DNA of 44,649 nucleotides. It comes from a virus. The number at the start of each line of letters is the position of its first letter. Position 1 is the stretch's first letter. This document shows positions 1 to 44,649 of the stretch, piece after piece. Location: the IMG/VR virus record IMGVR_UViG_3300025138_000078, positions 1 through 44,649 of that record; one strand, 5' to 3'. The notes under the pieces are model-generated. The model ran no database searches. It had not been told where the DNA came from and worked only from the letters and a program-made list of their open reading frames with translations. The translations under genes and the position numbers were made by a program.

Positions 1-3000
1 CTGGATTATCTAAACTAAAACCTTTAGATTTAATTTCATCTATATTCCAATCAAAGGCTCTACCTGCTGATTGCATTTTCTGTAATTTAGATGCAACAGG
101 TGGTGATATTCTTAGTACTTCTAAAATTTTATCTCTGTAATTAGAATTTTTCTTTTGTGATTCTTCGTAAAGCTTTATACTTGTATTTTTCACAACGGTA
201 AATATAGCTCCATATACACCAGTACCTCTAGAAAGACCATCAACCATACCATTTATCGCTTTTGGTACTTTTTCATCTAAAATACTTTTATCTTCTTCAT
301 CGTCTTCAAACATTAAAGCGAATAAAGCTTGTTGCATGTAGTTAAAAATAAGGTTTTGCATAACACCGTAATATAATATCCTAGATAAATTAGTTTTTGC
401 ATCCCCTCGGCCATTCTTAATATCGCTAGCTGATTTCTTTATTATACGTGCATATTGAGCCGGAGTGTTAGCAAAAGCTAGCACAATACGCCCTAATGGT
501 CCAGCTTGCTCCTGGCTAATTTTATCAGGTCTACTTGACTGCTGAGACTCTTCTGCTATCTCTCTAAAGTCTCGCATCGCTTGTTTATTTGCAGCTATAG
601 GGTTCATGCCTCCTTTTACTAAAGAATTAAGTCTATTCCTATAGAAAGTAGATCCACCAGATGCAATAGCAAAACTATCTGCTAACTGTGTAGGTGTAAA
701 ACCTAATTTAAGTAATTTATTAATAACACCTCTAACCCCACTCTCCTTAGCCACGTCAGCAATATCTTGTTCATTTACATTTATCTTCAAGCCATCACGT
801 CTTTCAACCAAGAAATCAGAGTTCCATAATGTTTTAAAATCACTCCAGAATTGAGGTTGATTAGCAAAAGCTTTACCGGCCGCTATAACATTATTGTCGC
901 CAAAGTTTATAAAGTTAACTGCAGATATTAGCTGTAAAGTAGCAGATCTAGTATTAAAGAACATAATAGCAGCCGTAGATCCATTTATCCAGTCAGTGAA
1001 ACGCTCCACCTGTTTATTACCAAAACCTCTGTTTCTACCACTCTTCATTCTTTTTAAAATATCCTTCATAGCTTCTTTATAAGACTCACCAAAAGCAGCT
1101 TCTAGCTTGTTTAGATTTTTAGGAGAAAATATAATGTCTACATTTTGTTGCCATAATTCTAAATACTGTTTTCTACCAGTGGTATTTAAAGACTCTAAAA
1201 GGTCAGTTGTAATAGTACCAGTGTCCCATTTTTCCGAAGGTTTTACATAAGCTCTACCTTTATTAAGTTTCATTATTTCTTGAGCAAATAACTTTAATTT
1301 AGGATCAGATTCCACTAACTCAACTAACTCAGCAATATCTGCTTCAGATAAATCTGGTGTTTTTTCACCTATTTGTTCCCATATATATACGCGTACAGCT
1401 TGTTCTCTTGTAAAAAGACTATCTTTTACTTTTTTCTTAAGGTTTTTAGGTACAATTTTTAAATCTCTTTTTAAAGCTCTAAAGTCTCTACCTAAATTGT
1501 TTCTATCTCTAGTTATATTCTCAACTCCTCTAGCATAAGGATCTATTAAATTATCTTTATACCATTTCATTTGAGAATTACCAACACTACCTTCACCTAA
1601 AGTAGCATACAATAAACCCATAAAATCTTCTGCCGACGGAGGAATAAAGAAGTTAAACCTACCTTTTTTCTTACCCATTAAGCCGGCCTTAACACCTGCA
1701 ATTGTTTCACTAGAAGCAATACCGGTTTTATTTTCTATTATATCATTAAACTCTTTATCAAGTTTAGGCGCTGCATTTTTAGAGAATTGAATTTCAGCTT
1801 CATTAATCTCATTATCTAGCTCACCCATTCTATCTAAAACATCTTGATTTGTAAAATCACCTGTTAACCTTTGTGATTCAGGTAACATGTTATTATTAGA
1901 TTTTGCAGCTTTATCTACAGATTTGCTAAGTGAAATATAAGACTTTTTAATTTCCTCTAATTCAGCCATCCTGTCAATAACAACATCACTAACCCCATCT
2001 GTAATCCTCTCTGCGTAATACTCAATTGATTCTTTTACGAATCTACCGCTGATTGGATACCTTAATATTATATTTTTTTCAGTTACTTTTGGTGCTGTAG
2101 GTGATTTACCATTTTTACCAACTACTACAGTCTCCTCTATATAAGTATCTTTGTTTAATCTTGTATGTGAAACCGTGCGTTTTGTAACAATATTACCTGT
2201 TTTTAAATCTTTAACGGTTGATACTGATGAACTAAACTCTCCATCATTGTATTTACTTTTAATGATATCGACAGCTTTCCCGCCATTGTTCATTCTGGTC
2301 CGTTGAACTTTTGTTGATGAAGAAATTTTACCATCTTTGTAAACTTTTTGCTCAGTAAGATTTTTATCCGCATCGTAAAGCTTAAAATCACTTGTTCTGC
2401 TCATAAAGTCACCTTCACCGTATCCAGTAATATCACTACCACCTTTAGAATTCATTGAACCAATAATCTTATACCCTGTAGCTTTGTCTTTACCTAAATC
2501 AATTGTTAAGTCAGGAGTAGGGGTATCAAACCTATCCCACCAGTTAGGATCTTTTTCATAATCATAAACACCAAGTTCAACCATTCTTGTATCTCCTTCT
2601 CCTCCATCTCTAAAAGATAATAGTTTACCGTTTTGGAAAGCTATTTTATAACCCGCACCATCACCATCTATATTATACTGTTGCCAATGAGTCCAAGCTT
2701 CTTTCATTACATCTAGATCTTTTGGGTCAACCGCTCTAGAAACAACCCATTTTCCTACTCCTTCTTCGTACGCAATAGTGTTATCAGTGTCCCAGTAATC
2801 ACGAAGAGTTTCTGAGTGCTCTTTAGCTTCTAATTTAGTATCAAAAACTTCAAGTGTATCTCCTTTAGACCTAGCTATTAAGCACCAAGGATTAGAGTTT
2901 TCACCCCAAAAGCTGTCAACTATGTTTCTAACTGCTTTTTGGCCTTTTTTAGAATCTACAACGTCATAAATAACTATACCGTCATCCATTTCTTGTTTGT

Positions 3001-6000
3001 TGCTAAGTTCTGGCACGTTGTCTGGATTTATTTTTTCCGTTCTAACTTCTTCGGTGAATTTGTTTATTAACTCATCTGGATTTGCGTAAGCATACGGATC
3101 TATTTTATTCTTATTAGACAATCTAACAACCTCTTCTATTTTATAACCATCTTCAGGAAATCTAGTATAACCATTAACTGTATAATATAATGCTAATTTC
3201 TTGTACTTAGGTTTTTTGTTTTCTGGAACATTTAATTCATCAGCCCAATCCAATAAGCTTTCAACTTGTTTAGGTATGTTTGGTAGATCTGGTCTTTTTT
3301 TCCTTAAAATACTCTCGTACTCAGCTCTTTTTTTCTTAGAGAATTGTATTTCTAACAAAGAATTATGATTACTACCAGGTTGTAAGCCAAGATTATTTAT
3401 TATTTCTTGCTCTCTTACTACTCCTTCAATATTTTTACTAAACATTAAACTAGATTTACCAGCACCTAGATCGGCTTTAGCCTGATTACTATCTAGTTTA
3501 GATCTACCAACAGTGTTGATCACATTGTCGATATACATCTTAGTTAATCCAGTTAGTATGCTTCCAAACTCAGTTCTAGCTTCACCTTTAATAGGTATAC
3601 TTAAAGTTCCTTTGTTTATTCCAATTAAGCTTTGTAGTTTAGCTACAGAACTAGGTGATATATTACCTGTAAATTCAGGTTTTAATTTATAAACATCTGT
3701 CTGAGTAGTTTTACCAAGACTTCTTCCGTTGGGACTGGATATACCAGGAATCGCGCCATCTACTTTATCATAAAATATTGCTAAAACCTTAGGATTAATA
3801 CCTATTGATCTTCCATAAGTATCTCTAGATACGTCTATAGTTTCACCCTGCTCATTTACAACTGTCTCTTTAGTAGCGATATTGTAATCTGGCATTGTTT
3901 TTATAAACTTTCTAACATCACTATCGTTCTTAAATACGTTCTGCAGAGAATTAGCCTCTGAAGACCCACCGCTTTTATCGTATTTTAATGTAGCATTACC
4001 TCTAGCTTTCTTACCGCTTATACCAAATATAGCCTCAGACACTTTGTCAAAGAATTTATTGTTTAAACTTTTGAAGTTAGGTCTTTCACCTTCTTTTATA
4101 TCTATTACGTTTTCTACAGCTTCTAGTATCGAAGGATCACTTATAGGACCAAAGCTTGTAGCTTTTATCATCTTCTGAGTAGAATCTTTTAAATCGCTAG
4201 GTTTGCTGTCGCTTCCATATAACGTATTAACATCACCTGACATTTCTTTAACAGATCCAACACCACCTGCTTCTACATCAAGACTTTTATCAGCTATCTT
4301 TCTAAACTTTTCGTAAGTCTGCTGAGCCTTGGGTGCTATGTTATTATATACCCAGGTTGAAAACTTAGAATCTCCAGGTTTATAAGACTCTATTATTCTA
4401 GGTAGAAATTCTCTTAAATAATCTTTAACTTCGTCTCTATCATAATCTCCTTTTCTAGTATCGTACTTTATAGCTCTTAAAGCCATGTTATCGAAAGACT
4501 CAACTAAATCAGCTTCAGCTTTTGCTTTTTCTTTGATAGAAGTATCTTTTGATTTTATAGTTTCTATTAAACCTTCGTTATCGTATACTTTTTTAGGAGC
4601 TGATTTTTCTTTAGTTGAAGATTCTTTTTTAACACTAGATTTTTTAGCTTGTCTTATTTTTAATTCTAAGTTAGATTTTTGAGCATCAAAGTCTCCTTCG
4701 TCCATCTCAAATTCTCTGTCTATTAAATCTTCTAGTTCAGTGTTAAGTTCTGAAACTGATTTAGATAAACTAACACCGCTCACTTTACCATCCCCATCTT
4801 TACCTGCAAGTGCTTTCAAAGATCCTTTAAAATTACCCTTACTGTAAGCCTTGTTGTAATCTTTTATAAAGTTTATAACCCCCTCAGCTTTATCGAATCT
4901 TATGTTTCTAAGGCCTAAGTCTTGAAAAATTCGTCTAAAGAAATCCTGTATTTTTGTTATACTAGACTCATTTAGTTTTACCTCTTTGTTAGTTACAGCC
5001 TCTGAAAATAAAGGAAGAATTTCTTCAAAGAACTTGTCAGCAGTAATTTTATCATCAGTAGCATAGCTTTCTATACGTGCTACAATATTTGAGGAAGATG
5101 AAGAGGATGCTAGTATTTCTTTTAAAAGCAATTCCCCAGCCTGTTGAACTAGCTCTGGTTTTGATGACAGAGAAGCTTTTAGGAATTTATGTAAAAATTC
5201 ATGTTGACCAGTTGTAACAACTCTATCACTAAGTGCAGAAGCTTTGTTTATAACTAAAATTTCTTTACCATCAGCATCCACTACAAATGTTCCGTAAGAA
5301 TCTTTAGTTTCTTTAGCGTACTCCTTAGACTGACCAACGCTTATTAAAAATTCTTCCATCTTATCATCGGCAGATCCATCTTGATCGTCTTCAAATATCT
5401 TGGTTTCATCTACTTTTTGACCAATAGAATTTAAAGACTTTGCAAAATTACTTACATCTTTATCAAATCCTTCAGTTATACTTCTTTTTATACTGCTGTT
5501 TTCTATTTCACTATCAATTTCTTTAATTCTATCGTTTATAGGGCCATGGAAAGAAGAGTCTGTGTTTTTCTTCTTCTCTATTAATTTCTTTTTCTGAATT
5601 AACAATTCTATCTGATCAGATGAAACGTCTTCTGGAGCCGTATTCATAACGCTAGCAACGTCTCTAACGAACACTCTGGCTTTATTTATATCTTCTATAA
5701 GGCTAGGATCTGTAGCCGTCTCTAGCATAGTTTTAAAGTATAAATCCGTGGATTTTAAGTTGTTAAATATACCTTTATATATTTGTGCTTTTTGAGCGTT
5801 GTAAGTATTTTTAGCACCAGTAAGACCAATACCACCGCTAAGCATAAAAGTTCCAGCTATTAAGTTTATTTGCTCATCAACGAATTCATTTTGCTTTAAT
5901 GCGCCTAAGCCAAAAGCCATGTCTGTAATAATGTTCATTCCAAAAGTAACCTCCTCTTCGAGAAGTTCTTTAAACATATTCCCTGTGTATGTTTTAACTG

Positions 6001-7900
6001 CTGCTTTAGTACCTTCTTTAGTAGTCAATCCTTTTAAAGAATTAAATAATGCGTTTTTTATTTCTTTACCAGCACCACCTTTTATAAACTTATAATCAGG
6101 CATTATAGCTTGAACCAAACCTTCTGTAAAAGAAACAGTTGTAGCATATAAATCCCCAGCAGGACCACTTAAACCTTTTTTGTTTGCTTCTATAGAATTA
6201 TTCAAAATAGTCATCCTAAAAGCAGCATCACTGGATATAATAAGGTTCTTCATGTTTTGAGCAGACTTTGTTACAGCTCCTGCTTTGGTATAATTTGAAA
6301 GCATTTTACCTAAACCCTCTCTATACCCTGTAAATTTACCTTGTTTTACATTTCTGATTATCTCAGCTGTAAAAGGAATCATATTAAAAGCTGTTTTACT
6401 CCATGCTCTAGCACTAAACTCCTTAAGGTTACCTTCGCCATCTGTGATGTTAAATTTTTCATCCTTAGAGTCTGGAACCACGTTAAAGTTTAATAAATCA
6501 CCCCAAGTATCCCTCATAGAGTCAAAGCTACTATAAGTGTCATCATCCGTGAACAAGTCTCCAAATGCAGTTGTTACAAAAACAGGGAATCCAACAACTG
6601 TTTGGCCAGCTAGTTTCACCATTTCTTGAGCAGTGCCTCCTACTTGATCAACAGCCCAGTTAAAAACTCCATCACCGGAAAAAGCTTCTGTGTATTTTTT
6701 TACATCATCAGTTAACTTAAAGTTACTTTTCAAAGCCATTCTAGCTATATCTACACCCCATTGAGCGTTTATAACTTCTTGACTCTTATTTAAAGACTCT
6801 TGCTTGCCTTTATATCTATCAGAAGTTTGTTTAAACGTATCTTTTAGAGAGTTGTATTGTTCTAATAAACCATTATATTTATCTAAAGTCTCTTGAGTGT
6901 AGCCAGTTGCAGGTTTATTGTTTTTTATAAGATTCATACTTCTAACTAAAGATGATTCTTGTCTTTTTAAATCACCAAAAACATCTTCAGTTTCTAGTTT
7001 TAAAGCATCGTATTCTTTACTTAATTCTTTACGTACTTCTAATATTTTAGGTATTCTGTATTTATTTATTAAAGCTTCCTTATCCTGCAAGTTCATCTTG
7101 CCTTGCGCTAGCTTCTGTAAAGTTCTAACGTCTTCACCTCCAGCGATAGCTCCTTCTAAACTGTCTTCAAGCTCTATTACCTGTGAAGGCACATCGGTCT
7201 TAGCATCGTTTATCCAGTTGCCAGAAATAGCTTGCAGTCCTTGTTTGAAAAGCCCTTGAGAAAAAGGAGTATCAAAAGTGTTACTCGTATTTCCTGTGTC
7301 TTTTCTTAGTTGTTCTATAGCTTTATCTTTTAATTTAAAGTTGTCATCAAACTTATATATTTGCTCTTTTTCAGCTTTAGCTTCTTCATCAAATTTGTCT
7401 GACTGATCATCTATATATTGCCTAGCATCTTCCCAAGTATCAAACACATCACCTTCTAAACCGTCTTCCGCGTAGTTAGTTGCTAATTTAATTAATTTTT
7501 GTTTAGCTTCAGGTGTCTTCTTTAATGTCTTCTTTATTTCTTCATAATCTGTTATAACAACTCCAGAGCTATTTTTTCTAAGCAGGGTTTCACCCATTGG
7601 ACCTTTTTCAATATAGTCATCATCAGTTAAATCCATTATAGAACCAGGTTTATTACCTGTTCTTTGCTCGTAATTGAAACTAGCCTGCTCGTTTGACAGT
7701 GGCTCCGAAGAACCATTTTCCGATGCTGAATCCATAGCTGTTACACTTGCATCCTCCGTTGCAACAGCTTCTGTCTTTACTGGTTTAACTTCTTCTTCAA
7801 TTAGCACAGCTCCTTCAAATTGTTCAGAACTCTTAAAATCTTCAAGTAAATTTTCAGGTACATTAATTAATTTACCTGATTTCAATCTATAGTATGGCAT
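1..7900 (-). CDS. Giant ejection/polyvalent-type virion protein, C-terminus cut by window edge
   Basis: One reading frame runs from ATG at 7898-7900 to the left edge with no stop in the stretches I read, giving at least 2633 residues (start MPYYRLKSGKLINVPENLLE). Residues 900-904 read HEFLH, an HExxH zinc-peptidase-like motif in the context TTGQHEFLHKF. Near residue 1670 is a NPWCLIARS segment in a Trp/Tyr-rich domain. Residues about 2310-2600 (RSATLQLISAVNFIN, IADSFAIASGGSTFYRNR, ESQQSSRPDKISQEQ) resemble the C-terminal domain I recall from giant marine phage proteins and polyvalent proteins (LPD38-like). A hydrophobic stretch lies near residues 670-700. It is last of three ejection-type genes, 15 nt after the 617-residue gene. 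By analogy with T7 gp16 it probably travels in the capsid and enters the host; that is inference, and peptidase activity is unproven. Confidence 0.8.
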   Translation of the reverse strand, partial: MPYYRLKSGKLINVPENLLEDFKSSEQFEGAVLIEEEVKPVKTEAVATEDASVTAMDSASENGSSEPLSNEQASFNYEQRTGNKPGSIMDLTDDDYIEKGPMGETLLRKNSSGVVITDYEEIKKTLKKTPEAKQKLIKLATNYAEDGLEGDVFDTWEDARQYIDDQSDKFDEEAKAEKEQIYKFDDNFKLKDKAIEQLRKDTGNTSNTFDTPFSQGLFKQGLQAISGNWINDAKTDVPSQVIELEDSLEGAIAGGEDVRTLQKLAQGKMNLQDKEALINKYRIPKILEVRKELSKEYDALKLETEDVFGDLKRQESSLVRSMNLIKNNKPATGYTQETLDKYNGLLEQYNSLKDTFKQTSDRYKGKQESLNKSQEVINAQWGVDIARMALKSNFKLTDDVKKYTEAFSGDGVFNWAVDQVGGTAQEMVKLAGQTVVGFPVFVTTAFGDLFTDDDTYSSFDSMRDTWGDLLNFNVVPDSKDEKFNITDGEGNLKEFSARAWSKTAFNMIPFTAEIIRNVKQGKFTGYREGLGKMLSNYTKAGAVTKSAQNMKNLIISSDAAFRMTILNNSIEANKKGLSGPAGDLYATTVSFTEGLVQAIMPDYKFIKGGAGKEIKNALFNSLKGLTTKEGTKAAVKTYTGNMFKELLEEEVTFGMNIITDMAFGLGALKQNEFVDEQINLIAGTFMLSGGIGLTGAKNTYNAQKAQIYKGIFNNLKSTDLYFKTMLETATDPSLIEDINKARVFVRDVASVMNTAPEDVSSDQIELLIQKKKLIEKKKNTDSSFHGPINDRIKEIDSEIENSSIKRSITEGFDKDVSNFAKSLNSIGQKVDETKIFEDDQDGSADDKMEEFLISVGQSKEYAKETKDSYGTFVVDADGKEILVINKASALSDRVVTTGQHEFLHKFLKASLSSKPELVQQAGELLLKEILASSSSSSNIVARIESYATDDKITADKFFEEILPLFSEAVTNKEVKLNESSITKIQDFFRRIFQDLGLRNIRFDKAEGVINFIKDYNKAYSKGNFKGSLKALAGKDGDGKVSGVSLSKSVSELNTELEDLIDREFEMDEGDFDAQKSNLELKIRQAKKSSVKKESSTKEKSAPKKVYDNEGLIETIKSKDTSIKEKAKAEADLVESFDNMALRAIKYDTRKGDYDRDEVKDYLREFLPRIIESYKPGDSKFSTWVYNNIAPKAQQTYEKFRKIADKSLDVEAGGVGSVKEMSGDVNTLYGSDSKPSDLKDSTQKMIKATSFGPISDPSILEAVENVIDIKEGERPNFKSLNNKFFDKVSEAIFGISGKKARGNATLKYDKSGGSSEANSLQNVFKNDSDVRKFIKTMPDYNIATKETVVNEQGETIDVSRDTYGRSIGINPKVLAIFYDKVDGAIPGISSPNGRSLGKTTQTDVYKLKPEFTGNISPSSVAKLQSLIGINKGTLSIPIKGEARTEFGSILTGLTKMYIDNVINTVGRSKLDSNQAKADLGAGKSSLMFSKNIEGVVREQEIINNLGLQPGSNHNSLLEIQFSKKKRAEYESILRKKRPDLPNIPKQVESLLDWADELNVPENKKPKYKKLALYYTVNGYTRFPEDGYKIEEVVRLSNKNKIDPYAYANPDELINKFTEEVRTEKINPDNVPELSNKQEMDDGIVIYDVVDSKKGQKAVRNIVDSFWGENSNPWCLIARSKGDTLEVFDTKLEAKEHSETLRDYWDTDNTIAYEEGVGKWVVSRAVDPKDLDVMKEAWTHWQQYNIDGDGAGYKIAFQNGKLLSFRDGGEGDTRMVELGVYDYEKDPNWWDRFDTPTPDLTIDLGKDKATGYKIIGSMNSKGGSDITGYGEGDFMSRTSDFKLYDADKNLTEQKVYKDGKISSSTKVQRTRMNNGGKAVDIIKSKYNDGEFSSSVSTVKDLKTGNIVTKRTVSHTRLNKDTYIEETVVVGKNGKSPTAPKVTEKNIILRYPISGRFVKESIEYYAERITDGVSDVVIDRMAELEEIKKSYISLSKSVDKAAKSNNNMLPESQRLTGDFTNQDVLDRMGELDNEINEAEIQFSKNAAPKLDKEFNDIIENKTGIASSETIAGVKAGLMGKKKGRFNFFIPPSAEDFMGLLYATLGEGSVGNSQMKWYKDNLIDPYARGVENITRDRNNLGRDFRALKRDLKIVPKNLKKKVKDSLFTREQAVRVYIWEQIGEKTPDLSEADIAELVELVESDPKLKLFAQEIMKLNKGRAYVKPSEKWDTGTITTDLLESLNTTGRKQYLELWQQNVDIIFSPKNLNKLEAAFGESYKEAMKDILKRMKSGRNRGFGNKQVERFTDWINGSTAAIMFFNTRSATLQLISAVNFINFGDNNVIAAGKAFANQPQFWSDFKTLWNSDFLVERRDGLKINVNEQDIADVAKESGVRGVINKLLKLGFTPTQLADSFAIASGGSTFYRNRLNSLVKGGMNPIAANKQAMRDFREIAEESQQSSRPDKISQEQAGPLGRIVLAFANTPAQYARIIKKSASDIKNGRGDAKTNLSRILYYGVMQNLIFNYMQQALFALMFEDDEEDKSILDEKVPKAINGMVDGLSRGTGVYGAIFTVVKNTSIKLYEESQKKNSNYRDKILEVLRISPPVASKLQKMQSAGRAFDWNIDEIKSKGFSLDNP

Positions 7901-18042: not shown

Positions 18043-18834
18043 TTAACTTTTTTGATTTATTTCTTCTTGTTGTATTTGTTGCGCTGCTGCTTGAACAATT
18101 TGAGGATCTCTTATAACTATACCGGCATAAAGTAATATTTTTAATATAACGCTTGTTTGCTCTGTAGAAGACAACTCAAAATTAACTGAGCCTTGTCCAG
18201 GCAAAGGGTTAAATAAGTAGCTACTCCCGGGTCCAGCAGTAAAAGCCCATTGAACATTTAATGGTTTTCTTAAAAAATCTACAGATACAGTATTAGCAGC
18301 TATAGTAGTAGGTCTTATAAATAATTTATTATTTTCATACAAATACGTAGGAAATGCTAGCGTAGATGCGGTAAGATTTGATCTTTGTATATTATAAAAT
18401 TCGTTTCTTGGAAGTCTTTGAAGTTCTATAGGTAAACCTATGGTTGGTTGATATATTACAGTTCCTAATTTATAAAAACCAGCTTGGCCCGTAGTTAATG
18501 GAGCTAATTGATTGTATATAATTGTAGTACCATATAAATCAATTGTTGGTAAATCCCAGTAGGGATTATTTGCTATTGTTGTATTAAGCGTTGCATTACC
18601 TGTAGTTTTGAATATAGATATTTTTTCATCTATAGACATTTGTCTATCAGCATAATCAACATCTGCTTGTGGCACTCGTAGCTGTTGGTTTAAGTCTTCG
18701 AAATATTGTTCGAATATATCTAACTGAACTTGAGTAGCTATCCTGTTAAATTCGGGTGGCGTCATATAACCTCGCTGTTCTTTGTTTAGTATTAACAAAA
18801 CAGTTTTATATACTGTATCTACGTTTATTGCCAT
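18043..18834 (-). CDS. Head completion / connector protein candidate (263 aa)
   Basis: The protein starts MAINVDTVYKTVLLILNKEQ and continues GYMTPPEFNRIATQVQLDIF, a helical opening common to small connector-type proteins beside portal and capsid genes in marine phages. The middle is beta-rich. The end (AAAQQIQQEEINQKS) is a short Gln-rich helix. It is the first gene after the stem-loop at 18855-18881 and lies 3 nt before the 406-residue adaptor gene. Its position downstream of the capsid gene supports a ring or adaptor function. The family name is not known to me. Confidence 0.55.
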   Translation of the reverse strand: MAINVDTVYKTVLLILNKEQRGYMTPPEFNRIATQVQLDIFEQYFEDLNQQLRVPQADVDYADRQMSIDEKISIFKTTGNATLNTTIANNPYWDLPTIDLYGTTIIYNQLAPLTTGQAGFYKLGTVIYQPTIGLPIELQRLPRNEFYNIQRSNLTASTLAFPTYLYENNKLFIRPTTIAANTVSVDFLRKPLNVQWAFTAGPGSSYLFNPLPGQGSVNFELSSTEQTSVILKILLYAGIVIRDPQIVQAAAQQIQQEEINQKS

Positions 18835-18854
18835 TTTTTTTATTTATTATAATA

Positions 18855-18881
18855 TAGGCCCGAGTTAACGAGCCCTATATT
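18855..18881. other. Intergenic stem-loop between the 273-aa and 263-aa genes
   Basis: The 58-nt gap carries arms TAATATAGG and CCTATATTA (9 pairs) around a GC-rich loop containing GAGTTAACGAGC. It follows the 273-residue gene's stop on the minus strand, but no U-run follows it in that direction. It may be an RNA-processing or stability element, a weak terminator, or a protein site. A similar GC-rich stem-loop stands upstream of the 273-residue gene (19797-19825). Confidence 0.45.
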
Positions 18882-18892
18882 AATATTACATG

Positions 18893-19714
18893 TTAATTCA
18901 AATTTTTCTCTATAGATCTGAAAACTTCTACACCTTCGTCGGTTTTAAAGTAAGCAGCCATTGCAGAGTAAGGATTTTCATCGAAAGGAACTGTCATTAG
19001 TTTTCTTCCATTTGATCCCCATAAAAATGTTCTTTGATCTTGAGAAAGTGATATAATTCCTGCTTCAGCAGCTCTAATAGCTGTATTTCTAAGCTGAACG
19101 TTATCATCATTAGCTAAATCAATAAGTAACCTAGGGTTTGTTTTAGCAAACAAAAGTAAATCTCTTCTAATCTCTTTAGAGGTCATAGAGTTGACTGATG
19201 ATCCTAGTTCTACTCTCATTATAGCTTCTGCTTGATCAATTTCCATTTCTCTAGCAAATACTAAAGCATCTATTTGCAAGTCTAGTTCTTCTAAATCATC
19301 TTCAGCTTCTTCTACTGCGCTAAACTCTTCGTATAATTTACCTTTTAAAGGGTGAAAAATTGAAAGTAGTTTTTGTAAGTTTTGTTGCTGTTTAGATACT
19401 TTTAAATCACCATTGGCAAATTGTATATGCCCTAATGTGCATTCTCCTTTTTGTTCATCTACTAGCGGAGATTCTTGGTTAGTAGCGTATCTTATTTCTC
19501 TTTGTTTACCATTTTCTTCGTCGAAATAAAGTAGCGAATGCTTTTTAGTGTGACGACATGGTATAGTTAGAGTTAAAGGGCTTTTGTTATCCGTTAAATA
19601 ATAAATCCTGTCCTTGATTTCCCAAGTTGGTTTAATTGGTTTAGCAGCCTTTATAGGTTGTGCTTTAACTTGAGGTGCTACCTCAACTTTTTTAGCTTGT
19701 GCTTTTGTAGCCAT
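18893..19714 (-). CDS. Unknown head-region protein with Cys/His residues (273 aa)
   Basis: This 273-residue protein has a basic Ala/Lys/Pro N-terminus (residues 1-30). It then shows C53-x-H55, H59 and C92-x3-H96 spaced like a possible metal site, an acidic helix (about 130-150) and an alpha-helical C-terminal half with VQLRNTAIRAAEAGI, reminiscent of a HEAT-like helical pair. I do not recognise the family. It sits alone between capsid and connector genes, flanked on both sides by stem-loops and preceded by the long interrupted palindrome at 19742-19786, so it may have its own expression level. A head-associated or decoration role is only inference. Confidence 0.6.
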   Translation of the reverse strand: MATKAQAKKVEVAPQVKAQPIKAAKPIKPTWEIKDRIYYLTDNKSPLTLTIPCRHTKKHSLLYFDEENGKQREIRYATNQESPLVDEQKGECTLGHIQFANGDLKVSKQQQNLQKLLSIFHPLKGKLYEEFSAVEEAEDDLEELDLQIDALVFAREMEIDQAEAIMRVELGSSVNSMTSKEIRRDLLLFAKTNPRLLIDLANDDNVQLRNTAIRAAEAGIISLSQDQRTFLWGSNGRKLMTVPFDENPYSAMAAYFKTDEGVEVFRSIEKNLN

Positions 19715-19741: not shown

Positions 19742-19786
19742 AATGACAATAGCCTGTTACTATAATATATACTAGCTAATGTCACA
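19742..19786. promoter_or_regulatory. Interrupted palindrome, copy C
   Basis: Outer arms AATGACAATAG and CTAATGTCACA flank a 23-nt AT-rich core. The element matches the two 47-bp elements at 43374 and 44485 (arms TGTGACATTAG and CTAGTGTCACA, 25-nt core), including the TAGTAA..GG core edge next to CTAATGTCA when read on the minus strand. It lies 27 bases before the start of the 273-residue gene. A regulator-binding site, promoter-linked operator or recombination/replication site would all fit. Confidence 0.55.
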
Positions 19787-43039: not shown

Positions 43040-43306
43040 TTATTTATTGTTTTTCTCGGCTTTTGTACCGTCTTTTTTGCTCTTACTCTGTGTTCCTCCT
43101 CTATTGTGGGACGATAACACAAACTTGCTTGTATTATGGTCATAATCCTTGTCTAATAAAAACGCCACACCCTTATTCTTTATGGCTTTTCTTCTTTTCA
43201 TCTGACTATCTGCTCTCTTAGCCTTCCTGTCGTCTGTATTAGCGCAAGCTAAATCCCTCACTGCCTTTGCTTTTGCAGCTTTAGGACTTAATTTCTGTTT
43301 CCCCAT
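43040..43306 (-). CDS. Small basic protein at start of late region (88 aa)
   Basis: The protein is Lys/Ala/Arg-rich throughout: MGKQKLSPKAAKAKAVRDLA, then RADSQMKRRKAIKNKGVAFL and GTQSKSKKDGTKAEKNNK. I recall similar small basic proteins at this position in marine phages, with no known function. It begins the minus-strand late run beside the divergent region. Its composition fits nucleic acid or virion-interior binding. A TATATACTATATAA stretch about 25 nt upstream could be its promoter. Confidence 0.5.
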   Translation of the reverse strand: MGKQKLSPKAAKAKAVRDLACANTDDRKAKRADSQMKRRKAIKNKGVAFLLDKDYDHNTSKFVLSSHNRGGTQSKSKKDGTKAEKNNK

Positions 43307-43373
43307 TTTAATTGTGGTGTTATATAGTATATATACTTACATGGAAAGAGTAAATCTTACAAATAACCAATAA

Positions 43374-43420
43374 TGTGACATTAGCCCCCTACTATACCTA
43401 TCTAGTAGCCTAGTGTCACA
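43374..43420. promoter_or_regulatory. Interrupted palindrome, copy A
   Basis: Arms TGTGACATTAG and CTAGTGTCACA are 11-nt inverted copies with one mismatch, around a 25-nt core. The core itself contains CTACTA and TAGTAG. It shares exact length and arms with copy B at 44485-44531. It stands about 68 bases before the first late gene on the minus strand, near the candidate late promoter. Confidence 0.65.
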
Positions 43421-43640
43421 CTTTTATATTGCGATAATTTTTCTGAAAAAATTTTTTTTGAGATGTAGGGAAGTTTAGTGTTACCCCCTAACTCTCTGAC
43501 TTTCAACCAGTTACGAAACGCGTTTCAGTTTAGCGGGTCCCCCCTTTTTTTTACGTTTTGTTTCTATATATGCTTGGTTTCCAGCGCGTTACGCCTGTAC
43601 TATTTATGTTTTTTATAGCAAACAACTAATTTTTTTGCAA

Positions 43641-43669
43641 AAAGAATACGACTTTGCCCAGATAATATA
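43641..43669 (+). promoter_or_regulatory. Promoter-like motif P1
   Basis: AATACG (43645-43650), ten bases, then GATAATATA (43661-43669), preceded by a T-run ending 9 bases before AATACG. The spacing is the same as in P2, P3 and P4. No gene starts right after it; a short RNA carrying the hairpin at 43681-43694 could arise here. Confidence 0.6.
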
Positions 43670-43708
43670 TATGTAACGACGATGCTGCTGCATCAATACA
43701 AGCTCAGC

Positions 43709-43722
43709 AACCTCTCGTCCTT
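43709..43722 (+). repeat. Boundary repeat D1
   Basis: AACCTCTCGTCCTT is the shorter copy of a repeat found again at 44194 and 44462. It lies 15 nt before promoter motif P2. In all three cases the repeat precedes a promoter-like motif. Confidence 0.5.
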
Positions 43723-43737
43723 GTCGCTTTCAAATAA

Positions 43738-43762
43738 AATACGGATATTATAAGATAATATA
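43738..43762 (+). promoter_or_regulatory. Promoter-like motif P2
   Basis: AATACG (43738-43743), ten bases, GATAATATA (43754-43762). It lies 45 bases before the ATG of the 80-residue gene and shares TTTCAAATAAAATACGGA with P3. The GATAATATA box resembles a TATAAT-type -10 element, but no TTGACA-type -35 is present. Confidence 0.65.
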
Positions 43763-43788
43763 TATGAATAATAATAATAATAATAATT

Positions 43789-43798
43789 AATCTAAAAT
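43789..43798 (+). promoter_or_regulatory. Translation leader motif before the 80-aa gene
   Basis: AATCTAAAAT ends exactly 8 nt before ATG. The same motif and spacing precede the genes at 44093 and 44284. No Shine-Dalgarno is present, so this may be a start-site enhancer or an RNA/protein site. Confidence 0.6.
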
Positions 43799-43806
43799 TC
43801 AAGTTT

Positions 43807-44049
43807 ATGAACAATCAAGTAGTAGTATTGGAATCTAAAAGATTCGTAGTAAGAAAGTCGTTGATCGGTAAAAACACAATAGTAAATGTAACGTTCAAGA
43901 ATGGAACTGTAGCGAAGTACAATCACGACGCAGTGTATGAAGTTATGAAAGAGAAACTAAATGCAATGAACTGCTGGGAGAAGTACAAGTCATATACTTC
44001 ATCAGTAAGTATGCCGGTTGCAACAAGATCACTACTTTTAACCAAGTAG
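43807..44049 (+). CDS. Short early-type protein (80 aa)
   Basis: This is the first plus-strand gene. The protein reads MNNQVVVLESKRFVVRKSLI, then GKNTIVNVTFKNGTVAKYNH and VYEVMKEKLNAMNCWEKYKS. It is basic, with strands followed by a helix, and no known family. It is driven by motif P2 and preceded by the leader AATCTAAAAT with 8 nt to ATG. The small size and separate direction suggest an early host-takeover protein, which is inference. Confidence 0.6.
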   Translation: MNNQVVVLESKRFVVRKSLIGKNTIVNVTFKNGTVAKYNHDAVYEVMKEKLNAMNCWEKYKSYTSSVSMPVATRSLLLTK

Positions 44050-44073
44050 TTCAGTAGAAATCCCCTACATATT

Positions 44074-44084
44074 AATCTTAAAAT
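44074..44084 (+). promoter_or_regulatory. Translation leader motif before the 31-aa gene
   Basis: AATCTTAAAAT ends exactly 8 nt before the ATG at 44093. It differs from the other two copies by one extra T. Confidence 0.55.
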
Positions 44085-44092
44085 CAAATAAC

Positions 44093-44188
44093 ATGAAGAA
44101 AAGTAAACAAGATCAGTTACTGTCGAATCAAGTACACGCAGTAGTAATGGTAATTATAGTAATAATCCTAATAACAATAAACATATGA
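44093..44188 (+). CDS. Tiny membrane peptide (31 aa)
   Basis: The 31-residue frame starts MKKSKQDQLLSNQVHAVVMV and continues with a hydrophobic run rich in Ile, Leu and Val (about residues 16-31) to TGA at 44186-44188. It has a basic start and one membrane span. It is too short for most gene calls. Its leader AATCTTAAAAT-N8 matches the neighbours, which is the best evidence it is translated. It may modify the host membrane. Confidence 0.5.
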   Translation: MKKSKQDQLLSNQVHAVVMVIIVIILITINI

Positions 44189-44193
44189 TCTAA

Positions 44194-44216
44194 AACCTCT
44201 CGTCCTTAACAAGAAC
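44194..44216 (+). repeat. Boundary repeat D2
   Basis: AACCTCTCGTCCTTAACAAGAAC is 23 nt, with one mismatch to D3. It lies 5 bases past the tiny gene and before P3, and could fold a weak GTCCTT/AAGAAC hairpin. It may mark the end of one transcript. Confidence 0.55.
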
Positions 44217-44236
44217 AGCCCAATTTTTTCAAATAA

Positions 44237-44261
44237 AATACGGACTTATAAAGATAATATA
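44237..44261 (+). promoter_or_regulatory. Promoter-like motif P3
   Basis: AATACG (44237-44242), ten bases, GATAATATA (44253-44261), with upstream TTTTTTCAAATAAA. It lies 22 bases before the ATG of the 59-residue gene. Confidence 0.65.
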
Positions 44262-44265
44262 ATTG

Positions 44266-44275
44266 AATCTAAAAT
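44266..44275 (+). promoter_or_regulatory. Translation leader motif before the 59-aa gene
   Basis: AATCTAAAAT ends exactly 8 nt before ATG at 44284. This argues for ATG at 44284 over the earlier TTG at 44263, which lies next to the GATAATATA box. Confidence 0.6.
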
Positions 44276-44283
44276 ATATAACT

Positions 44284-44463
44284 ATGACCTTAACTGAATC
44301 TATTAAATTAACTATTAAACTGAATAAACAACTAAATAAACAGATCGATCTGATAACTAATACTGAATATTTAAACAGACAGTGCTCAATCGAATATTTA
44401 CTTGAACAATTAAATAATATCTATCAAGAAGAATTGGAATTCCAACAAGAATTAAATAAATAA
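44284..44463 (+). CDS. Short helical early-type protein (59 aa)
   Basis: The protein reads MTLTESIKLTIKLNKQLNKQ and continues IDLITNTEYLNRQCSIEYLL, ending QEELEFQQELNK. It is Gln/Asn/Leu/Glu-rich and predicted as helix pairs, possibly a coiled coil. It ends where boundary repeat D3 begins. No family is recognised. A small regulator or adaptor is plausible. Confidence 0.55.
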   Translation: MTLTESIKLTIKLNKQLNKQIDLITNTEYLNRQCSIEYLLEQLNNIYQEELEFQQELNK

Positions 44464-44484
44464 CCTCTCGTCCTCAACAAGAAC
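44462..44484 (+). repeat. Boundary repeat D3
   Basis: AACCTCTCGTCCTCAACAAGAAC starts inside the stop codon of the 59-residue gene and abuts palindrome B. It is 23 nt and matches D2 at 22 positions. Confidence 0.55.
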
Positions 44485-44531
44485 TGTGACATTAGCCCCT
44501 TACTAGTTATACTTAACTACCTAGTGTCACA
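44485..44531. promoter_or_regulatory. Interrupted palindrome, copy B
   Basis: Arms TGTGACATTAG and CTAGTGTCACA with a 25-nt core, total 47 bp, as in copy A. It is followed by a T-run and motif P4. Its close link to a promoter motif suggests operator function. Confidence 0.65.
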
Positions 44532-44545
44532 CTTTTTACGAAAAG

Positions 44546-44570
44546 AATACGATCACTCGTAGATAATATA
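44546..44570 (+). promoter_or_regulatory. Promoter-like motif P4
   Basis: AATACG (44546-44551), ten bases, GATAATATA (44562-44570). It points right, out of the window. The bases after it hold a GCGA-GACTT-TCGC hairpin and no visible start codon in the 79 bases left. Confidence 0.6.
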
Positions 44571-44649
44571 CATGTAGCCTGATACTTTTTAAGTAATCGG
44601 AAGAGTAGACTCCGCCCTACGCGAGACTTTCGCCACACTCTAAAGAATT

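Follow-up and report, generated by a model that had tools for sequence, protein, structure and literature searches.

Four copies of a short repeat lie near the right end of the stretch analysed here, the 44,649-base IMG/VR virus record IMGVR_UViG_3300025138_000078 (hereafter the window), and on balance we favour the view that they are promoters of a genome arm running away from the structural genes. They would be used by host core RNA polymerase with a specificity altered by the phage, the alteration coming most likely from a sigma-70-family protein that the phage clade itself encodes further down the same arm. The window is an incomplete virus contig of 44.6 kb and its own sigma gene would lie outside it. 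Its terminase, portal and GroEL genes are on the minus strand, and plus-strand coding is limited to a short stretch at the right end.

The repeats and their distribution

The repeat consists of AATACG and, after ten variable bases, GATAATATA. Exact matches begin at 43645, 43738, 44237 and 44546, all on the plus strand, and there is no fifth in the 44,649-base record. These four copies, their coordinates and their place in a plus-strand module had been described in the original prediction, made by a model from the letters of the window, and exact pattern matching bears all of this out. A weight-matrix scan of the window recovered the same four sites and no others, and a shuffled sequence gave none; matches with three mismatches occurred about as often as chance allows (7 in all vs 3.6 expected). 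The two subtypes that had been distinguished do exist, not as separate elements but as variants of one upstream box with the clade consensus TTACAAACTAAATACGA. Two things contribute to the T-run reported before each copy: a conserved TT of this box, and the U-run of a hairpin that ends just before the fourth site. The sequence at the sites also supports the earlier statement that the motif is neither TAnnTTTG nor TTGACA.

In a collection of 2.9 million viral contigs the motif was present, among the matches listed, in more than 100 viral stretches, most of them contigs 45-70 kb long in which it recurs several times. All 28 motif contigs tested, the window included, encode a terminase of family phrog_6681, which belongs to podoviruses of Bacteroidota, and the named phages with related terminases infect Flavobacterium, Cellulophaga, Tenacibaculum and Maribacter. 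Many Bacteroidota bins were also found among 37 metagenome-genome contigs of these phages, and from the relatives and the bins together the host is probably a member of the Bacteroidota. Other bins in the species genome collection are archaeal or proteobacterial (L338, L341, L351, L365 and others), very likely as a result of mis-binning.

A logo built from 216 distinct sites lengthens the motif to TTACAAACTAAATACGA-N9-GATAATATA. Seven motif genomes were compared, namely the window and six relatives of which all or almost all of the sequence was read. Each has 4-10 sites, confined to the strand that does not carry the terminase and grouped where that arm begins; shuffles of these genomes contain none. 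When gaps of 5-16 bases were allowed between AATACG and GATAAT, the gap was exactly 10 bases in 30 of 30 pairs. The motif was not found in the relatives MW202828, elemoE, phi38:1 and phi18:3.

To avoid ascertainment by the motif, 80 loci were picked through the sigma gene instead. In these loci the sigma strand has 242 sites and the other strand none (0.2 expected). Of the contigs retrieved through sigma, 42 reach 55 kb or more, and 38 of these have the motif within one mismatch; the reversed pattern gave one match in total. Two of the four remaining contigs, as well as the sigma-positive G075, have variant upstream boxes with GATAATA and the spacing unchanged; in L374 (G075), L380 (G057) and L384 (G047) all sites of a genome share the changed box (TTCGAA.., loss of CG, or CCCC..). 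The original prediction had proposed a scan of related phages, in which the sites prove to cluster on one strand at the start of the arm and are not scattered at random.

Predicted position of the transcription start

The GATAATA core is essentially invariant in the sigma-retrieved loci, and 12 nt beyond its G there is a purine in 100% of cases. The ATG of an open reading frame (ORF) falls exactly on this predicted +1 at 50 of the 242 sites, one base before it at none and one base after it at 2. This register fixes the start position, and implies leaderless mRNAs at about one-fifth of the sites; in Flavobacterium psychrophilum the leaderless share is 5.5% (PMC9723704). Given the register and the purine, the fourth base after GATAATATA, which lies 12 nt beyond the G of that element, is a more likely start than the interval 6-9 nt past GATAATATA that was first suggested. 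Relative to this start, GATAATATA extends from -12 to -4 and the 17-bp upstream box from -38 to -22, so that the motif shows what is expected of a sigma-type promoter, a conserved A/T-rich -10 element with a purine start about 7 nt further on.

Promoter function is suggested by sequence features. The idea of a phage-specific promoter gains from the restriction to one strand at the start of an arm, the location before small ORFs, the invariant spacing, the ATG in register and the clade-wide occurrence. The promoters would be early ones, as originally proposed, judging from their position. As for how they are read, host polymerase acting with a phage factor is more probable than a polymerase made by the phage, and the identity of that factor is itself a matter of probability.

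A phage sigma factor as the probable reader

Among the early-arm products of the relatives is a protein of about 245-260 amino acids with sigma-70 region 2 and region 4 (Pfam 1e-5 and 2e-5, respectively; PHROG sigma 8e-25; PDB SigA 8e-13). In L153 its gene occupies 18291-19046. In the alignment with SigA, the W-W, Q and T positions of the latter, which we take to be the residues that read the canonical -10 element, are replaced by K-R, G and R. Of 28 motif contigs, 20 have the sigma gene, and among those 58 kb or longer it is present without exception (17 of 17), whereas the four motif-less relatives all lack it; no similar sigma was found in any named phage searched at E 1e-3. In two loci, L279 and L300, the ATG of the sigma gene lies exactly at the predicted motif start, giving a leaderless transcript, and positive feedback through autoregulation is therefore likely. 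Just upstream of sigma, a helix-turn-helix (HTH) protein of 204-213 amino acids is conserved in 87 of 89 loci (L257-L336). Its AlphaFold model has a predicted local distance difference test (pLDDT) value of 85 and no relative among solved folds, and the protein was not found in any named phage.

The promoter signal of the presumed hosts points in the same direction. Bacteroidota have an atypical primary sigma factor and promoter. Between genes, TAnnTTTG is about four-fold enriched in the sister phages elemo (17 vs 4.0 expected) and MW202828 (10 vs 2.3), and the seven motif genomes have fewer copies than expected (9 vs 23.9). Together with the co-occurrence of sigma and motif, this lack of enrichment suggests a switch of promoter specificity that accompanies the sigma factor. 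The flavobacterial sigma-A reads TAnnTTTG at -12 to -5 (PMC9723704), and this sequence is not present there at the motif sites.

Ahead of the first late gene there is a candidate second class of promoter, TTKTAA-N16-GTAATNATA, whose core was found in the upstream regions of 22 of 29 relatives (1.0 expected), often with an ATG 14-15 nt after the G and hence leaderless. It may be imagined that the lineage has dropped TAnnTTTG entirely and that both arms are transcribed from two private classes of promoter, with the phage's own sigma-70-type protein setting the system going from a leaderless transcript under autoregulation, though we regard this wider scheme with rather more doubt than belief.

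Several observations weigh against the phage sigma as reader of the motif, for which the case is circumstantial. Residue covariation and partial Mantel tests link variation of the box to sigma, and equally to its HTH neighbour, no better than to control proteins. Two sigma-positive contigs, G065 and G070, have no site in the parts read. The late-arm class may be the real target of the sigma factor. The motif cluster also precedes the sigma gene, which means that transcription must at first depend on something else, either a site read by the host or a factor carried in the virion, and neither was found.

Alternative explanations

This last difficulty would disappear if the early promoter were read by an unmodified host holoenzyme, with a primary or alternative sigma, and the phage sigma made from it served the late-arm class. 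Such an arrangement is not our expectation but has perhaps one chance in a few of being right: the motif stands at the very start of the arm, upstream of sigma, a distinct late-arm promoter class exists, and no other obvious source of first transcripts was found. The preference of flavobacterial sigma-A for TAnnTTTG counts against it, and the motif is not among the six F. psychrophilum sigma motifs as the text of that study describes them (PMC9723704), a comparison in which the hosts of the present phages are presumed. Nor would a fixed host factor account well for an upstream box that varies coherently between genomes. It is less probable again, and in our opinion unlikely, that a phage DNA-binding protein reads the box and sigma reads only the -10 element, in the manner of T4 MotA/AsiA. 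The box is centred near -30 at a fixed distance from the -10 element and varies by genome while the -10 element does not, and the HTH protein beside sigma is a candidate activator. However, the variant-motif genome G075 has sigma and no HTH neighbour in place, and the HTH protein has neither a match to MotA-like or other solved folds nor covariation with the box.

Two further explanations can be given little weight. The clustering of the repeats at one place in the genome would also suit binding sites without promoter function, such as replication, packaging or operator repeats, but their strict strand, their position before ORFs, the exact ATG register and the start-like purine make this very improbable. 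Least credible is a promoter for a T7-type single-subunit polymerase. AATACGA followed by 9 nt and a G has the spacing of the T7 promoter TAATACGACTCACTATAG, which agrees at every base of AATACGA and has a G equally far away, but the 9 nt are not CTCACTATA-like and the ATG register puts the start 12 nt further on. Moreover, none of 37 records contained a PF00940 polymerase, whereas T7 itself was found as the control at 1e-109, and this explanation was rejected. No other polymerase was recognised among the scanned early-arm proteins of one relative. The lack of a T7-type polymerase and the presence of a phage sigma together favour a redirected host RNA polymerase over a phage polymerase.

Relationship to known systems

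The kind of system, in which a phage promoter is served by a phage-modified host polymerase, is already known. T4 middle promoters combine a MotA box centred at -30 with a -10 element (PMC2988021). In these promoters and in the motif alike, a phage-specific upstream box replaces the -35 element at a near-fixed distance from a strictly conserved -10 element, and no phage polymerase is involved. In the clade, however, both elements differ in sequence from those of T4, the box is longer (-38 to -22), a full sigma-70-like protein is encoded and about 20% of sites are leaderless. The T4 MotA box (TGCTTtA, 12 +/- 1 bp before the -10 element) is not matched by TTACAAACTAAATACGA, which ends 9 bp before GATAATATA; no MotA homologue was recognised in the clade, and AsiA was not searched for. 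The clade protein resembles phage sigma-70-family factors (phrog_351; group 2 jumbo phages, PMC7824862) in its region 2, 3.0 and region 4 homology and, presumably, in redirecting the host core polymerase, although the clade genomes are small and podovirus-like, unlike those of jumbo phages. The core element occupies the same -12 to -4 interval as that of the Bacteroidota primary promoter (-7 TAnnTTTG; PMC9723704), but GATAATATA shares almost no bases with TAnnTTTG. Close relatives are the Flavobacterium elemo phages (Elemovirus) and MW202828, which have a terminase 45-62% identical, the portal, GroEL and the two-arm layout; unlike the clade, they lack the motif and sigma and have host-type promoters.

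No phage paper containing GATAATATA was found in the open literature searched and, as far as tested, the promoter, its strict geometry, its leaderless use and the apparent replacement of the host promoter in presumed Bacteroidota phages are new. A large clade of uncultivated phages would possess a sharply defined promoter that is not of host type and a private sigma. From the motif, the transcription units and start sites of these phages can readily be mapped, and it offers a testable sigma-promoter pair that could become an orthogonal expression tool for Bacteroidota. If the lineage does use two private classes it would represent an orthogonal transcription circuit for these bacteria. With neither promoter class similar to that of the host, it has also to be asked how infection gets under way.

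Other features of the window and the clade

The predicted promoters and the features around them are listed in Table 1.

Table 1. Predicted promoters, ORFs and hairpins at the right end of the window (PWM, position weight matrix score)
Feature	Position	Strand	Remarks
Promoter 1 (predicted)	43635..43673	+	Upstream box 43635-43651; -10 GATAATATA 43661-43669; start G 43673 (clade register); exact match; PWM 32.6
Promoter 2 (predicted)	43728..43766	+	Upstream box 43728-43744; GATAATATA 43754-43762; start G 43766; would drive ORF at 43807; exact match; PWM 33.7
Promoter 3 (predicted)	44227..44265	+	Upstream box 44227-44243; GATAATATA 44253-44261; start G 44265; would drive ORF at 44284; exact match; PWM 34.2
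Promoter 4 (predicted)	44536..44574	+	Upstream box 44536-44552; GATAATATA 44562-44570; start G 44574; its gene past the contig end; exact match; PWM 29.3
Candidate late-arm promoter TTGTAA-N16-GTAAGTATA	43332..43362	-	Upstream of first late gene 43040-43306; class pattern
First early-arm ORF, 80 aa (KRFVVRKSLIGKN...)	43807..44049	+	Family in 5 of 7 motif genomes, 1-3 copies near early-arm start; absent from 4 outgroups
Small ORF, 31 aa	44093..44188	+	C-terminal half hydrophobic; between promoters 2 and 3; read from sequence
ORF after promoter 3, 59 aa	44284..44463	+	ATG within longer TTG ORF 44263-44463
Hairpin/palindrome GTGACATTAG...CTAGTGTCA then CACTTTT	43375..43418	+	Clade-conserved, between arms; fold -18.6 kcal/mol, z -5.3
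Second hairpin/palindrome copy then CACTTTTT	44486..44529	+	Immediately upstream of promoter 4 (terminator-then-promoter layout); fold -16 kcal/mol, z -4.9

The palindrome belongs to an inverted repeat of the clade, GTGACATTAG...CTAaTGTCAC, which is present in about 1-4 copies per genome, with a further copy in the window at 19745-19785 and none in the four outgroups. On the plus strand of the window it forms a strong hairpin with a U-run. There is little RNA covariation, none of it convincing, and no Rfam match; the repeat could be either a terminator or a protein-binding site. The family of the 80-aa ORF has a sub-threshold Pfam match to the enterotoxin B chain that is probably meaningless.

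At the other end of the window an open-ended giant ORF (2-7900, minus strand) encodes more than 2600 amino acids, of which the C-terminal 650 are conserved across the clade. It has a HEFLH metallopeptidase-like motif and no Pfam or PHROG match. A stretch resembling sigma region 2, noticed by eye in this virion ORF, was unsupported by Pfam, PDB and the clade sigma profile, and the idea of recoded stop codons was rejected, the standard code leaving the frame open as well. The sequence CCTCTCGTCC is repeated between the early genes of the window at 43711, 44196 and 44464, with a longer form, ACCTCTCGTCCTnAACAAGAAC, occurring twice; 379 other loci lack it.
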